Shown here piece after piece: positions 1,288-52,965 of a DNA stretch of 64,000 bases; position 1 is the first letter of the stretch; every line of letters starts with the position of its first letter. Both the position numbers and the translations under genes were made by a program. The notes beneath the pieces are model-generated. The model saw only the letters and a program-made list of their open reading frames with translations. It had not been told where the DNA came from and did not search any database. Source of the DNA: Salinirussus salinus (lineage in GTDB: Archaea; Halobacteriota; Halobacteria; Halobacteriales; Haloarculaceae); contig NZ_WOWO01000001.1 in assembly GCF_009831455.1 (NCBI RefSeq), positions 186,001-250,000 of the forward strand. The letters run 5' to 3'.

Positions 1288-1427
1288 AGCATCCGCGCGC
1301 CGCAGGCGCGCGGTTCACTCCGACCGAGCGGAGCGAGGTCGGAGGTCTTTTTCGCCCACGTTTTTCAAGGAGCGGTTCCGCAGCGAGCCGGAGGCTCGCG
1401 AGGAAACCCGACGCAGAAAAAGGTGGT
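1288..1427 (-). repeat. 140-bp structured intergenic element, copy 1
   Basis: It lies directly after the stop codon of the minus-strand KaiC-like gene and reads ACCACCTTTTT on that strand. It contains three perfect palindromes: 1293-1301/1305-1313, 1318-1325/1337-1344, and a GCGAGCC/GGCTCGC stem near 1383-1399. The block CGCCCACGTTTTTCAAGGAG lies between the second and third. A second copy (51878-52015) sits in the same place relative to the S19e stop codon, and its stems differ in sequence but still pair. The T-run next to the stop may act as a terminator. Whether the element is mobile is inference. Confidence 0.85.
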
Positions 1428-2480
1428 CTAGAAGATGTTGGCCTGCTGGTAGACGGAGATCCCCTCGGCGGTGATCTCGTAGGGTTTGCGCTCGCGGGAG
1501 TGGTTGGCGTTGCGGATCTTCTGGATCTCCACCGCCAGCCGGGTCTCCTGGGACTCCCCGCGGATGTACTGGAGAAAGAGGACCGCGTCGGTCAGGTACT
1601 CGATGATACCGTGACGGGAGGCGTACTCGTTGTCCTCGCTGGCCTCGCTGGTGAGGAAGGTGGTGACGCCGGCCTCCTTCAGCGACCGCGTGAAGTCGAA
1701 CACCTCGGTCCGCCGGCGGGCGACGTCGTCGTACATCATCTCCAGCAGCGAGACGGAGTCGAGCACGAGCCGGTCGGCGCCGAAGTCCTCGACCAGTTCG
1801 GGGAGTTCCCCGCGGATGTTGTCGAGGCTGTTTGCCATCTCGACGGGGTCAAGATCGACGACCGCCAGCGCGCCCTCGCGCTCGTAGCGGTCGAACTCCC
1901 AGCCCCGGCCGTTGGCGGTGTCCATGATGTCCTCGTAGCTCTGTTCGAGCGTGATGAAGACGCCCTGTTCCCCGTTCTGCAGCCCGTGGTGGAGAAACTG
2001 CAGCCCGAAGGTGGTCTTGCCGCTGCCGGCCCCGCCGATACAGACGATCAGGTGACGTTCGGGGACTCCGCCGAGGATCATGTCGTCCAGCCCCTCGATC
2101 CCGAGGTCGATGCGTGGAACGTCGGACTCGAAGTCCTCCTCGGCGAAGTCGGTCTCGCCGCTGCCCCCGAAGGCAGTCTCGAAATCGTCGTCGAAGAGGC
2201 TCTCGCTCCCTGCGTCGCCGAAGGAGACGGCGTCGTCGAAGGGGTCCTCACCGCCCGCCTCGCCGAAGGGGTCGTCGTCAAAGGGGGTGTCGTTGTCGCC
2301 GTCGAAGGAGTCGCCGTCGAAGGGGACGCCGTCGGACTCGGCGCCCGTCTCACCGGCCTCGGCCGCGCCCGGCGTTCCGGGCGGTCCCTCCCCGTTCTCG
2401 TCTTCGTCCTCGCCGTCCGCTCCATCGGGCTCGTCCGCCTCCCGGAGGGCCCGCTCGAACCAGTCCTCGTCCCCGCTCAT
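1428..2480 (-). CDS. KaiC-like RecA-superfamily ATPase with acidic N-terminal extension
   Basis: 350 residues. Residues 1-120 are a low-complexity, highly acidic segment with recurring Phe-Asp patterns (FDGDSFDGD, PFDDDPF, LFDDDFETAF), probably disordered. Residues 121-350 form a single KaiC/RadA-like domain: Walker A GGAGSGKTT at 149-157, a strand with TLEQ at 178-181, and Walker B RLVLDSVS with Asp241. KaiC itself has two such domains and a clock partner KaiB; this protein has one, and no kaiB is near. Haloarchaeal one-domain KaiC-like proteins are often tied to signalling or taxis, but the role here is inference. The two HalX regulators lie 500 bases away on the other strand. Confidence 0.85.
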   Translation of the reverse strand: MSGDEDWFERALREADEPDGADGEDEDENGEGPPGTPGAAEAGETGAESDGVPFDGDSFDGDNDTPFDDDPFGEAGGEDPFDDAVSFGDAGSESLFDDDFETAFGGSGETDFAEEDFESDVPRIDLGIEGLDDMILGGVPERHLIVCIGGAGSGKTTFGLQFLHHGLQNGEQGVFITLEQSYEDIMDTANGRGWEFDRYEREGALAVVDLDPVEMANSLDNIRGELPELVEDFGADRLVLDSVSLLEMMYDDVARRRTEVFDFTRSLKEAGVTTFLTSEASEDNEYASRHGIIEYLTDAVLFLQYIRGESQETRLAVEIQKIRNANHSRERKPYEITAEGISVYQQANIF

Positions 2481-2989: not shown

Positions 2990-3012
2990 CCGGCGGTGTC
3001 GTGGGATCCGCT

Positions 3013-3585
3013 GTGTCGGAGAGTCCCCAGGCGACCGTGCTCGTCGTCGACGACGAGCCCGAGGTGGCCGACGTGTACGCGCTCCGCCTCGAGACGGAGT
3101 ACGAGACCCGCGTCGCCTACGGCGGGGAAGAGGCGCTGGAGGCCGTCGACGGGGACATCGACGTCGTCCTGCTCGACCGGCGGATGCCGACCCTCTCGGG
3201 CGACGAGGTCCTCGGGAAGCTCCGCGAGCGTGGCTACGAGACCCGGGTGATCATGCTCACGGCCGTCGACCCGGGGATGGACATCATCGACATGCCCTTC
3301 GACGACTACCTCTGCAAGCCCGTCGAGAAGGACGACCTGACGGCGGCCATCGGCCAGCAACTCCGCGCCAAGCGGTACGACGCCCGGCTCTCCGAGTACA
3401 TGGAAGTGACCTCGAAGCTCGCGTTGCTGGAGGCGGAGCTGTCCACCCAGGAAGTCAGCGAGAACGAGGACCTGCAGGAGCTCTCCCGGCGGGCCGACGA
3501 GCTCAAAGCCCAGATGGACGAGGCGCTCGAGGGCTTCGAGGACATCGACACCGCCTTCCAGGAGATCGGCCGGCACCACAGCTGA
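3013..3585 (+). CDS. Response regulator with receiver and HalX domains (first of tandem pair)
   Basis: 190 residues from the GTG at 3013. The N-terminal receiver domain (about residues 8-120) has the acidic pair VVDDE, phospho-acceptor Asp in VLLDRRMP, Thr in MLTAVDP and Lys in CKPV. The C-terminal 65 residues form a coiled-coil-like HalX domain (Glu/Leu-rich helices ending EIGRHHS). HalX has no known DNA-binding motif, so output may be by protein contact. A paralogue follows 72 bases downstream with its own promoter, and the two share a 58-base identical tract. No cognate histidine kinase is adjacent; one PAS kinase lies at 18 kb. Confidence 0.9.
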   Translation: MSESPQATVLVVDDEPEVADVYALRLETEYETRVAYGGEEALEAVDGDIDVVLLDRRMPTLSGDEVLGKLRERGYETRVIMLTAVDPGMDIIDMPFDDYLCKPVEKDDLTAAIGQQLRAKRYDARLSEYMEVTSKLALLEAELSTQEVSENEDLQELSRRADELKAQMDEALEGFEDIDTAFQEIGRHHS

Positions 3586-3657: not shown

Positions 3658-4227
3658 GTGGCACCGAGTAGTCAGGTCGTCCTGGTCGTCGACGACGAAA
3701 CGGCCGTGGCGGACACCTACGCGCTCAGGCTGGAGACCCTGTACGAGACCCGCGTCGCCTACGGCGGGGAAGAGGCGCTGGAGGCCGTCGACGGGGACGT
3801 CGACGCCGTGTTGCTCGACCGCCGGATGCCGGGTATGTCCGGCGACGAGGTCCTCGAGACGCTCCGCGAACGCGGCTACGACGGTGTGGTCGTGATGACG
3901 ACCGCGGTCGACCCGGACCTGAACATCCTGGAGATGGACTTCGACGACTACCTCTGCAAGCCCGTCGACCGGGAGACGATCGTGGAGACGCTGGAACAGC
4001 ACCTCGGCACACCCGATACCGACGACCGCCTCGACGAGTTCTTCCGGGTCGTCTCGAAGCTCTCCGTGCTCAAAGAGGAGAAGACGCGGGCGGAACTCGA
4101 GGCGAACGCGGAGTTCCAGCGGCTCCAGGAGCGGGCCGACGAGCTCGCGGGGGAGCTCCGGGAGCGCGTCGACGAGTTCGACGACCTGATGGAGACCCAC
4201 CGGTCGATCAGCCGCGGGTCGTCGTAG
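3658..4227 (+). CDS. Response regulator with receiver and HalX domains (second of tandem pair)
   Basis: 189 residues with the same layout as its upstream neighbour: receiver (VVDDE, VLLDRRMP with phospho-acceptor Asp, MTTAVDP, CKPVD), then a HalX coiled-coil tail. The protein diverges in the tail and N-terminus, but bases 3741-3798 match 3099-3156 exactly, including wobble positions. This suggests gene conversion. The GTG start is placed by the TATA box at 3631. Kinase partner unknown. Confidence 0.9.
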   Translation: MAPSSQVVLVVDDETAVADTYALRLETLYETRVAYGGEEALEAVDGDVDAVLLDRRMPGMSGDEVLETLRERGYDGVVVMTTAVDPDLNILEMDFDDYLCKPVDRETIVETLEQHLGTPDTDDRLDEFFRVVSKLSVLKEEKTRAELEANAEFQRLQERADELAGELRERVDEFDDLMETHRSISRGSS

Positions 4228-37292: not shown

Positions 37293-37913
37293 ATGGGCGT
37301 CCTCGAGAACAAGGCGCGTGCCCGAACGTTCTACAAGTACCTCTCGAAGGTGTACGACCGCATCAACCCCTTCATCTGGAACGCGGAGATGCGCGACGAG
37401 GCCATCGCGATGCTCGACATCGAGCCCGGCGACCACGTGCTCGACGTGGGCTGTGGGACCGGCTTCGCCACCGAGGCGCTCCTCGAGCGCACCGAGAACG
37501 TCCACGGGCTCGACCAGAGCGCCCACCAGCTACAGCGGGCCTACGCGAAGTTCGGCAAGCGCGGCCCCGTCCGCTTCTACCGCGGTGACGCCGAACGGCT
37601 GCCCTTCGCGGACGACGCCTTCGACGTTGTCTGGTCGTCGGGGTCGATCGAGTACTGGCCCAACCCCGTCGACGCCCTGGAGGAGTTCCGCCGGGTTACC
37701 AGACCCGGCGGCCAGGTGCTCGTCGTCGGCCCGGACTACCCCGACAACACCGTCTTCCAGAAGGTCGCCGACGCGATCATGCTCTTCTACGACGAGGAGG
37801 AGGCCGACCGGATGTTCGCCGAGGCCGGCTACCCCGACTTCGAGCACCACATCCAGCAGGCCCGGCCGGGCAGCCCCCGCGCCATCACGACCGTGGCCTC
37901 TATCCCGAAATAG
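37293..37913 (+). CDS. SAM-dependent methyltransferase (MPBQ/MSBQ-methyltransferase-like)
   Basis: 206 residues from ATG 37293. Class I methyltransferase: motif I VLDVGCGTG, motif II near VHGLDQS, post-motif SSGSIEYWPNPVDALEEFRRVTRPGG. The opening RARTFYKYLSKVYDRINPFIWN matches the quinone methyltransferases (VTE3/MPBQ type) known in plants and also found in archaea, which suggests a role in menaquinone or related quinone methylation. A partial copy of its 3' end lies 172 bases downstream (38028-38092). Confidence 0.85.
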   Translation: MGVLENKARARTFYKYLSKVYDRINPFIWNAEMRDEAIAMLDIEPGDHVLDVGCGTGFATEALLERTENVHGLDQSAHQLQRAYAKFGKRGPVRFYRGDAERLPFADDAFDVVWSSGSIEYWPNPVDALEEFRRVTRPGGQVLVVGPDYPDNTVFQKVADAIMLFYDEEEADRMFAEAGYPDFEHHIQQARPGSPRAITTVASIPK

Positions 37914-37920
37914 CGGCGAC
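37856..37920 (+). repeat. Methyltransferase tail, copy A of direct repeat
   Basis: These 65 bases are the last codons, stop and 8-base trailer of the methyltransferase. The first 42 bases match 38028-38069 exactly; after that the codons differ but encode ASIPK here against ASLPE in copy B. Both are followed by GCGGCGAC (the stop codon differs, TAG versus TGA). Confidence 0.85.
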
Positions 37921-37953
37921 ACAACCCACCTACCTCAGCCGGGACGAACCGTC

Positions 37954-38023
37954 GGTTTTTCGCCCACGTTTTTGCCGTGAGGCGTCCGCAGCGAGCGAGG
38001 AACGCCGAGCGGCAAAAAGGTGG
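37954..38023 (-). repeat. Shortened relative of the 140-bp element, copy 3
   Basis: Shares GGTTTTTCGCCCACGTTTTT at one end and AAAAAGGTGG at the other with copies 1 and 2. The middle forms two nested stems (TTTTTGCCG with CGGCAAAAA; GGCGT with ACGCC) around CCGCAGCGAG. It sits between the two methyltransferase tail copies. Confidence 0.75.
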
Positions 38024-38027
38024 TTCG

Positions 38028-38092
38028 GCAGGCCCGGCCGGGCAGCCCCCGCGCCATCACGACCGTGGCTTCCCTCCCGGAGTGAGCGGCGA
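38028..38092 (+). pseudogene. Truncated duplicate of methyltransferase 3' end (copy B)
   Basis: Reads in the same frame as the parent gene (QARPGSPRAITTV, then ASLPE and TGA), but nothing upstream continues the protein. Forty-two bases are identical to copy A. It is a remnant of a tandem paralogue, or the old gene end displaced by insertion of the 70-base element between the copies. Confidence 0.7.
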
Positions 38093-38124
38093 CCCGGACG
38101 GCTCGCCGGTCGCACCCGCCTCGT

Positions 38125-38574
38125 TCAGGCAGTCGTCTCCAGGCGCGCGACCACCCCCGCGTCGGTCCGGACCGTCACGGAGACGCTGTCCCCGGGGTCG
38201 AGTCGCGTGTTCGTCGACGCCAGTGCGAAGGCGGCGGTCTCCCCGGCGCGCCACTGACCGTCGTGAGCGCTGTTGAACGGACCGGTCGGGCCGCTCTCGA
38301 AGCCCGTCGCGGCGAAAAACGGCACCGGGGGCTGGTGGGCGACCGGCTCACCCCCGACGTGGACGGTCACGTCCAGGGCAGCGGCCCGGAGCGTGTCCCC
38401 GCCCTCGTGAGTGAGCGCGACCCGGTCCGGGCCGGCCTCGGCTGTCAGGCTCAGGCGCGCGGTCGGGACCGTCGCCGGCTCGCCGGCGGGGACGGCTGCG
38501 AACACTGCCGTCCCGGCGACGACCACGACCCCCAGCAGGACGACGGTGCCGACGACGGAACTGACCGCGCGCAT
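38125..38574 (-). CDS. Type IV pilin-like (archaellin/pilin N-terminal) protein
   Basis: 149 residues. The N-terminus MRAVSSVVGTVVLLGVVVVAG has the short basic head and hydrophobic helix of a class III signal peptide cut by PibD. A beta-rich domain with Asp, Thr and Gly follows. Haloarchaea use many such pilin-like proteins for pili or as minor subunits. No pilB/pilC genes are near. It ends close to the duplicated methyltransferase tail. Confidence 0.8.
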   Translation of the reverse strand: MRAVSSVVGTVVLLGVVVVAGTAVFAAVPAGEPATVPTARLSLTAEAGPDRVALTHEGGDTLRAAALDVTVHVGGEPVAHQPPVPFFAATGFESGPTGPFNSAHDGQWRAGETAAFALASTNTRLDPGDSVSVTVRTDAGVVARLETTA

Positions 38575-51415: not shown

Positions 51416-51877
51416 ATGACGACGCTCTACGACGTCCCCACCGAGGAGCTGATCGAGGCGGTCGCCGACCGCCTCGCCGAGGAAGACGAGGTCGAGGAAC
51501 CCGACTGGCTCCAGTTCGTCAAGACCGGCGTGGACCGCGAGCTCCCGCCCGAGCAGGAGGACTTCTGGGTCCGCCGGGCCGCCAGCCTGCTCCGGAAGGT
51601 CGCCGTCGACGGACCCGTCGGCGTCGGCAGCCTCCGCACCGAGTACGGCTCCACGAAGCAGGGCTCGACCCGCTACCGGGTCCGTCCCCGCCGACAGTCC
51701 CAGTCTTCCGGGAAGATCATCCGGACCGCCCTCCAGCAACTCGAGGAGGCCGGCTACGTCGCGACCGCCGAGGGCGAGGGCCGAACCGTGACTCCCGAAG
51801 GCCAGGGCTTCCTCGACGACACCGCCGCCGAAGTGCTCGAAGAGCTGGACGACCCCGCGCTCGAGCGGTACGCCTGA
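51416..51877 (+). CDS. rps19e: 30S ribosomal protein S19e
   Basis: 153 residues, archaeal/eukaryotic S19e. MTTLYDVPTEELIEAVADRL at the start, FWVRRAASLLRKVAVDGPVG and IIRTALQQLEEAGYV later. Needed for small-subunit assembly. Its stop codon is directly followed by copy 2 of the 140-bp element. PDCD5 and a PP-loop protein follow it in many archaea; here a DUF998 gene is inserted between. Confidence 0.97.
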   Translation: MTTLYDVPTEELIEAVADRLAEEDEVEEPDWLQFVKTGVDRELPPEQEDFWVRRAASLLRKVAVDGPVGVGSLRTEYGSTKQGSTRYRVRPRRQSQSSGKIIRTALQQLEEAGYVATAEGEGRTVTPEGQGFLDDTAAEVLEELDDPALERYA

Positions 51878-52015
51878 CCACCTTTTTTTGCGTCGGGTTT
51901 CCTCGCGAGCCGGAGGCTCGCTGCGGAACCACTCCTTGAAAAACGTGGGCGAAAAGACCTCGCCGCTCCCTCCGGTCGCGGCGAGTGAACCGCGGCACAG
52001 AGCGCCGCGGATGCT
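51878..52015 (+). repeat. 140-bp structured intergenic element, copy 2
   Basis: Begins CCACCTTTTTTTGCG at the S19e stop and continues as the reverse complement of copy 1 (1288-1427). Read in copy 1 direction, stem P1 is CCGCGGC/GCCGCGG and P2 is CTCGCCGC/GCGGCGAG. P3 has the same stem as copy 1 with a complementary loop. The linkers (CGCCCACGTTTTTCAAGGAG, GAGGAAACCCGACGC) are nearly unchanged. Confidence 0.85.
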
Positions 52016-52171
52016 ACTTTTCACATTGAGCTAACGTTCGGTCTCGCCGTGGGATTGTTCGCACTCCCCCAGCTGCCACAGCCGAGTTGTTATCCCCAGA
52101 GGAGGTATATGGGAGAACCGGTATCTATTAAATAAACAACTACTTTTCCCTTTCGTACGAACGCTCGGTTG
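52016..52171. other. AT-rich spacer before the DUF998 gene
   Basis: Contains CTATTAAATAAACAACT at 52125-52141, the probable promoter of the DUF998 gene. The base composition shifts from GC-rich to AT-rich at about 52015, the end of the repeat. Confidence 0.5.
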
Positions 52172-52834
52172 ATGAGCCAACCTACCTCTCTTCACTCCCG
52201 ACTCGGACTCTCGGAGCGGTCGATAGCGGGCTTCGGCCTCACGGTGTCAGGCTTCCTCGGATTCATGGGGATAATCACGGCCGAGGTCCTCTATCCGAAC
52301 TACTCGACGCGACAGGATATCAGCGACCTGGGGTCGACACGCCCGCCCGACCCAGTGATACACGAGCCCTCAGCGACGGTCTTCAATTCGACGATGCTCC
52401 TGACGGGAGCGATAGTAGTCATCTCGGCATACCTGCTTTACCGGGTGATGGACCGCCGCGGGTTCCCGATTACGCTCGCCGTCTTTGGACTCGGCGCGTT
52501 TGGTGTCGGCGTCTTTCCGGGAAACGTGACTCCGTGGCATGGACTATTCGCGCTCCTCACGTTTCTTACGGGGGGTATCACAGTCCTCCTTTCCGCTCGG
52601 GTCGTTTCCCGTCCGTTTTCGCTTCTCTGTGGACTCTTCGGTGCGGTCTCCTTTCTCACTCTCGTCAGTGTCTTCTTTTTCGGACTGGTCGTCGGTGGTC
52701 CCCATCCGCTCGAATTTCTCGGGGGCGGCGGAATCGAGCGGTGGGTCGTCTATCCGCTCATCCTCTGGTTGCTCGCGTTTGGTGGCTATCTCCTGGCGAA
52801 AGCTGAGGAGACGACGAGGGATACTACGGCGTAG
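52172..52834 (+). CDS. DUF998 family membrane protein, atypical composition
   Basis: 220 residues, six hydrophobic helices. It fits DUF998: ITAEVLYPNYSTRQDISDLG, a large membrane bundle and WVVYPLILWLLAFGGYLL. The codons use A/T in third positions much more than the neighbours, and the flanks are AT-rich, which suggests recent transfer. It interrupts the rps19e-pdcd5 neighbourhood. ATG 52172 is preferred to TTG 52169. Function unknown. Confidence 0.85.
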   Translation: MSQPTSLHSRLGLSERSIAGFGLTVSGFLGFMGIITAEVLYPNYSTRQDISDLGSTRPPDPVIHEPSATVFNSTMLLTGAIVVISAYLLYRVMDRRGFPITLAVFGLGAFGVGVFPGNVTPWHGLFALLTFLTGGITVLLSARVVSRPFSLLCGLFGAVSFLTLVSVFFFGLVVGGPHPLEFLGGGGIERWVVYPLILWLLAFGGYLLAKAEETTRDTTA

Positions 52835-52965
52835 CCGGCGCGTCTTGATACTCCACCGGTTTTCGGACTACGTTATAGTAGGGCCCGAGCGACACCTCGT
52901 GTCTAGCTTCGTGACACCCTGGGTGCTCCGTAATGGTTTTGCGGGCGAGCCGACAAACGGGAGGT

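Follow-up and report, generated by a model that had tools for sequence, protein, structure and literature searches.

How haloarchaeal repeats without a transposase move is a long-open question. SMR-A and SMR-B of Haloquadratum walsbyi are non-coding, ~80–110 bp long and present in many copies; their terminal inverted repeats show no relation to those of known transposons, and they insert mostly into other mobile elements, without duplicating the target (PMC3119063). The palindrome-associated transposable elements (PATEs) share their ends with IS605-type transposons and also lack a target duplication (PMC3119063). Among transcription signals, the closest counterpart to the element described here is the intergenic T5C terminator of Haloferax volcanii, which, inserted into a reporter, terminated 95% of transcripts (PMC7237163). 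In a stretch of 64,000 nucleotides from the genome of Salinirussus salinus (hereafter the window, to which all plain coordinates refer), we found copies of a real and unusual family whose broad kind is that of transposase-less small mobile repeats, and of which we found no description in the open-access literature.

Like the SMRs, the element is short, non-coding, haloarchaeal and present in many copies, and its mobilisation is unexplained; it is also insertion-polymorphic, and it differs from them in its 31–161 bp duplications, gene-edge sites and three covarying hairpins. It shares with the PATEs near-terminal palindromes, heterogeneous copies, haloarchaeal hosts and the lack of a transposase gene, but one of its insertions carries a ~67-bp target duplication, and neither a parent of that kind nor a Y1 transposase was found in the genomes searched (see below). 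Because the lack of duplication typical of SMRs and PATEs does not hold here, we file the element as neither. MITEs are likewise short, palindromic, interspersed and insertion-polymorphic, but their duplications are short and fixed by the parent transposase, whereas the duplications seen here vary from 31 to 161 bp and the parent transposon is not known. Bacterial REP/BIME and pneumococcal BOX/RUP repeats are comparable as interspersed intergenic hairpin repeats whose stems vary and which are frequently located close to transcript ends; REPs rely on RAYT, a Y1 protein, whereas the S. salinus genome contains no Y1 protein, and we know of no long target duplications in either group. To our knowledge, duplications of 30–160 bp are far outside the range of known DNA transposases, and the usual source of long, variable target duplications is reverse transcription. 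Reverse transcription is apparently absent from Haloarculaceae, which makes the movement of transposase-less haloarchaeal repeats directly testable.

Two full copies were already recognized in a sequence-only reading of the window, which placed them at 1288–1427 and 51878–52015, each directly after a stop codon and in the direction of the gene that it follows; both are real and the description holds. Copy 1 (1288–1427, minus strand) begins 1 nt past the TAG of a gene for a KaiC-like RecA-fold ATPase (1428–2480, minus strand), and copy 2 (51878–52015, plus strand) starts without a gap behind the TGA of rps19e, encoding ribosomal protein S19e (51416–51877, plus strand). On the strand of the followed gene, both read stop, CCACC, T5, hairpin P1, A5, the core CGTGGGCGAAAAA, P2, GTGAACC, P3 and GGATGCT, the string in copy 1 opening with ACCACC. 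In copy 1, the long hairpin P1 (1356–1426, minus strand) has the closing stem CCACCTTTTT/AAAAACGTGG and a conserved internal loop (TCG/ACTC), and is followed by P2 (1318–1344) and P3 (1293–1313), both on the minus strand; the core, TTTTTCGCCCACGTTTTT on the plus strand (1348–1365), presents a T5C tract in the plus direction with a second T5 after it. The corresponding hairpins of copy 2 are P1 (51878–51948), P2 (51959–51985) and P3 (51990–52010), all on the plus strand. Hairpins are numbered here from the CCACC end, so that P1, P2 and P3 of the sequence-only reading are our P3, P2 and P1; the loop inversion that it reported for its P3 is present (TCC against GGA) and lies in the inner loop of our P1. 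The two copies are 94% reverse-complementary over 80 nt, and as single strands they fold better than shuffled sequences, with z scores of −3.7 and −2.2 as RNA and −4.2 and −2.4 as DNA. Elsewhere in the window, neighbouring response-regulator paralogues (3001–3585 and 3658–4227) contain a 291-nt repeat that is 81% identical.

With copy 1 as a DNA query, the 3.4-Mb S. salinus genome yielded ~30 copies (30 matches, a few of them overlapping), and a pattern for the 18-nt core matched 18 times genome-wide compared to none for the reversed control pattern; the number of elements is thus far above chance. Across 292 genomes of the class, the exact core was found in 42 of 58 sampled members of the same family, identified as Haloarculaceae from the named hits, and in only 13 of the 234 others; the named hits are Haloarcula, Halorientalis, Halosimplex, Halomicrobium, Halomicroarcula, Halorhabdus and Salinibaculum. 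Our collection comprised 191 core-bearing places, 174 of which have the CCACC end. BLAST searches against phage and plasmid collections did not find the element and a single viral contig carries the core, and we rejected a virus-borne repeat on these grounds. The same 18-nt core occurs twice, 71 bp apart, with a shortened P1-like arm, in a Thermoplasmata MAG (L084), a distant archaeon in which it may reflect either chance or transfer. Contigs C3 (10–38) and C4 (221–249) of the S. salinus assembly (G000) start inside element copies, which probably caused the assembly to break there.

A third window copy (37923–38027, minus strand; core at 37956–37973, plus strand) escaped the sequence-only reading; it consists of P1, the core and a degenerate P2, without P3, and is the one insertion resolved against an empty site. 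In G292, from the same genus, the site is uninterrupted, with the gene and its downstream region intact. Window positions 37300–37907 and 38028–38300 map to G292 stretches that overlap by 52 bp, and full alignment shows a ~67-bp duplication plus an insert of ~105 bp. Copy A of the duplication (37856–37922, plus strand) now provides the functional 3′ end of a methyltransferase-like gene, including its stop codon, and copy B (38028–38094, plus strand) is the displaced original gene end. The two share 7 substitutions that are not in G292, and B, not A, runs on into the G292 downstream region; the insertion itself thus produced the repeat in this lineage, which makes it a true target duplication. 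The same site is also empty in a more distant relative (G297). A corresponding search at L018 gave no usable empty site, and an all-against-all search for empty sites over the fetched loci returned mainly self matches.

Long direct repeats are not confined to this site. Direct repeats of 31–161 bp enclose 54 of the 166 copies whose flanks are known, compared to 1 of 166 in a control that combined flanks from different copies. The repeat ends 0–8 nt from CCACC in 51 of the 54, often at exactly 4 nt, and P3 is missing from nearly all repeat-flanked copies. In the cases inspected, the repeated stretch usually corresponds to the 3′ end of whichever gene lies on the P2 side and, a few times, to a gene start. 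At citrate synthase, the same junction is present in several genera, with the element missing in close relatives, and in L210 the two repeat copies differ mainly at third codon positions (mostly synonymous), a pattern suggestive of later between-species exchange in which the repeats may have served as arms for homologous recombination; these loci were located by a protein query in an unchecked frame, which served for locating alone. Allele mixing, considered because of citrate synthase as a source of the direct repeats, was rejected since it leaves the lineage-specific changes of A and B at the third copy unexplained, and an adjacent-deletion ratchet for flush placement was set aside since the same repeat junction persists across genera. 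Tandem amplification of a gene end together with the element also occurs: an array in G297 (L313, C1:2703300–2705900) has 10.5 repeats of a 171-bp unit at 99% identity, the unit combining a gene 3′ end with the element, and G041 has four cores spaced 151 bp. If the terminator role discussed below holds, such arrays offer the element a route for reshaping gene 3′ regions.

Across copies, one end is constant, (A)CCACC-T5-P1-A5-GTGG, and the other varies, stopping after the core, after core and P2, or after core, P2 and P3-GGATGCT. Thus, P1 alone is bounded by CCAC.TTTTT/AAAAA.GTGG, and the full element ends in GGATGCT; P3, with 27 occurrences in the fetched loci, has the core upstream every time and never stands alone. 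The closing T5/A5 stem itself exists in covarying versions within one genome, namely CCAC.TTTTT/AAAAA.GTGG, ACTA.TTTTT/AAAAA..TAGT and a perfect ACTAAATTTTT/AAAAATTTAGT. In a few copies, repeat copy B holds just the 3′ arm of P2; in L024, the A loop and the B flank are reverse complements of each other. Both are hints of fold-back copying. A further module, approximately GGCCTGCCTTTCCCCG followed by a GC-rich hairpin, lies just 3′ of P3 in L001, L002, L014, L016, L020, L293, L294, L296 and L197, being shared by many copies of this genome and L197. In six copies (L006, L014, L019, L021, L041, and L042), P1 is longer and comprises three hairpins (GTGGCGGC..GCCGCCAC, GGCATG, TTGCGGGCC..GGCCCGCAA).

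The paired stem changes that the sequence-only reading saw between its two copies recur strongly in the wide copy set. With arms anchored on the conserved linkers and with re-paired or slid arms as controls, P1, P2 and P3 all covary. Pairs 2–4 of the P1 upper stem are Watson–Crick in 77–95% of 65 copies, against 35–45% when arms are re-paired between copies; for pairs 2–7 of P3, the values are 61–83% and 35–48%, and at least 7 of the 8 P2 pairs form in 77% of copies against 8%. Sliding one arm by a single base lowers P1 pairing from 0.85 to 0.18–0.28. A MAFFT/RNAalifold consensus shows almost no covariation because the stems misalign. The further inference, that structure is kept at the RNA or single-strand level, is not supported as regards RNA. 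Mismatches in 1,698 stem pairs comprise 2 G-T, 1 A-C and 21 others, G-T being no commoner than A-C; the stem finder penalised every mismatch equally, which makes mismatch types, not absolute rates, fairly comparable, and a tRNA control for G-U content, with 10 tRNAs only, is weak. An Rfam scan of the window matched no family. Of the features expected of a structured RNA, covariation is present, whereas G-U tolerance and one consistent strand and context are absent; since G-U pairs are not favoured, RNA-level selection is unsupported. We read the stems as probable palindromic DNA rather than selected RNA, for which a single-stranded DNA function is possible.

The element brings transcription signals with it. 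A T5 lies within 14 nt of CCACC in 165 of the 174 copies and T5C is on the opposite strand of the core in 168, and 5 of the 11 T5C tracts in the window fall in element copies. T-tracts are found just downstream of genes, as in intrinsic archaeal terminators. In view of these tracts in both orientations and of the Haloferax reporter result, the element carries the known haloarchaeal terminator, T5 then C, in both directions; the Haloferax terminators are single local motifs, whereas here the signal belongs to a dispersed element. A role as a portable bidirectional terminator is therefore probable on this analysis and, if true, would mean that transcript ends across a whole archaeal family have been rewired time and again by a mobile element.

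Copies rarely lie in coding regions and are often flush with gene edges. Only 2 of 174 lie within called genes (calls from a small purpose-made codon model, checked against the window alone), which disposes of the concern that copies might occur inside genes as often as after stops. Of 59 same-strand cases, 39 have the stop codon no more than 8 nt from CCACC (39/120 repeat-free copies), and a promoter edge adjoins CCACC in 23 of 46 divergent cases. In 26/120 repeat-free copies, a divergent start codon is 25–46 nt away, with a peak at 38–40 nt, a spacing that puts CCACC right at the edge of a leaderless gene's core promoter. A tRNA 3′ end adjoins 5/120 repeat-free copies, and the other 50/120 belong to no such class; at the P3 end, flush placement is limited to 2 of 45. 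The label of an element after stop codons consequently suits both of the copies for which it was coined but is too narrow for the family, whose members also abut promoters or tRNA ends or are enclosed by long direct repeats.

We are highly confident that the element is a non-coding, transposase-less, palindrome-built mobile DNA repeat of Haloarculaceae. The fuller account, of a mobile repeat that acts as a portable terminator or insulator and spreads by copying-in, we favour by a little over an even chance. Once in place, the element would serve as a bidirectional terminator or insulator at transcription-unit edges, and copies flush with stops, tRNA 3′ ends and leaderless promoters would persist owing to this role. 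To spread, a nascent DNA end may switch templates, entering an element copy at its P1 end, with copying running until hairpin P2 or P3 halts it and the end returns to the original template. Return 30–160 nt upstream would leave a long duplication, and return downstream a deletion with no repeat; the stems would be kept paired, as DNA palindromes, by re-copying or conversion. Copying-in by template switching is proposed because it would explain the constant and variable ends, the long duplications and the arrays. Template switching is insufficient by itself to account for flush placement at stop codons, and the insulator role required for promoter-edge copies is only assumed.

Two alternatives centre on the transcript. 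A structured RNA motif of 3′ untranslated regions under RNA-level selection would fit the strong covariation, the stable predicted folds and the many copies in sense right after stops, but G-U pairs are not enriched, copies also lie antisense, upstream of promoters and after tRNAs, the T5 tracts would stop transcripts ahead of the structure, and long direct repeats with an empty site denote insertion; we consider it very improbable. Ordinary, non-mobile intrinsic terminators, homogenised and spread between species by homologous recombination, are suggested by T5C in both directions and by the citrate synthase junction common to several genera, where A and B copies resemble separate alleles. 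That the third copy entered an intact site and brought about a lineage-specific duplication largely refutes this for that copy, and dozens of unrelated loci, within-genome similarity and tandem arrays speak against it generally, leaving it improbable.

The remaining alternatives concern the machinery. No reverse transcriptase (PF00078), which a SINE-like non-LTR retroelement would require in the genome, was detected in any of 55 Haloarculaceae genomes, the positive controls being detected. A MITE- or PATE-like IS200/IS605 derivative, whose palindromes a Y1 (HUH) transposase would recognise in trans in single-stranded form, would account for near-terminal palindromes with internal mismatches and for full copies without short target duplications, and such elements are plentiful in Haloquadratum (PMC3119063). 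However, Y1 transposase (PF01797) is missing from G000 and from five core-rich carriers (G041, G086, G016, G055, and G083; 8–18 exact cores each), PATEs lack a target duplication like the ~67-bp one here, a parent transposon sharing these ends did not turn up and P3 always has the core upstream, so that we judge this origin improbable. A dedicated recombinase acting in trans on the P1 end, targeting transcription-unit edges and making long staggered cuts, is a more serious contender, though still on the unlikely side: the constant end in 174 copies would fit a specific enzyme as well, as would the flush positions beside stop codons, promoters and tRNA ends, but there is no candidate gene and no autonomous copy, and staggers of 31–161 bp far exceed those of known DNA transposases. 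That a template switch, rather than such a trans-acting recombinase, moves the element has in our estimation slightly less than an even chance, a specific enzyme being nearly as likely. The most specific version, a transposase- and reverse transcriptase-free element with hairpin-guided template switching, 30–160 bp duplications and a bidirectional terminator at exact transcription-unit edges, is offered tentatively and is doubtful as a whole.

Occupancy at the genes next to the full window copies differs among relatives. KaiC-like orthologues carry the element at the stop in G314, G274 and G058, and most others are without it, in a comparison that left out several wrongly oriented loci. The rps19e gene of G292 is followed by no element; homology to the window breaks off at the stop codon and is regained at 52926, immediately upstream of the next gene's promoter, after 110 bp in G292 compared to ~1 kb here. 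The window has a membrane-protein gene at 52169–52834, between rps19e and the next gene, which is not in the ~110-bp G292 stretch. Three other copies (L089, L101, and L132) lie beside extra tRNA-Arg 3′ fragments or repeated tRNA-Arg genes.
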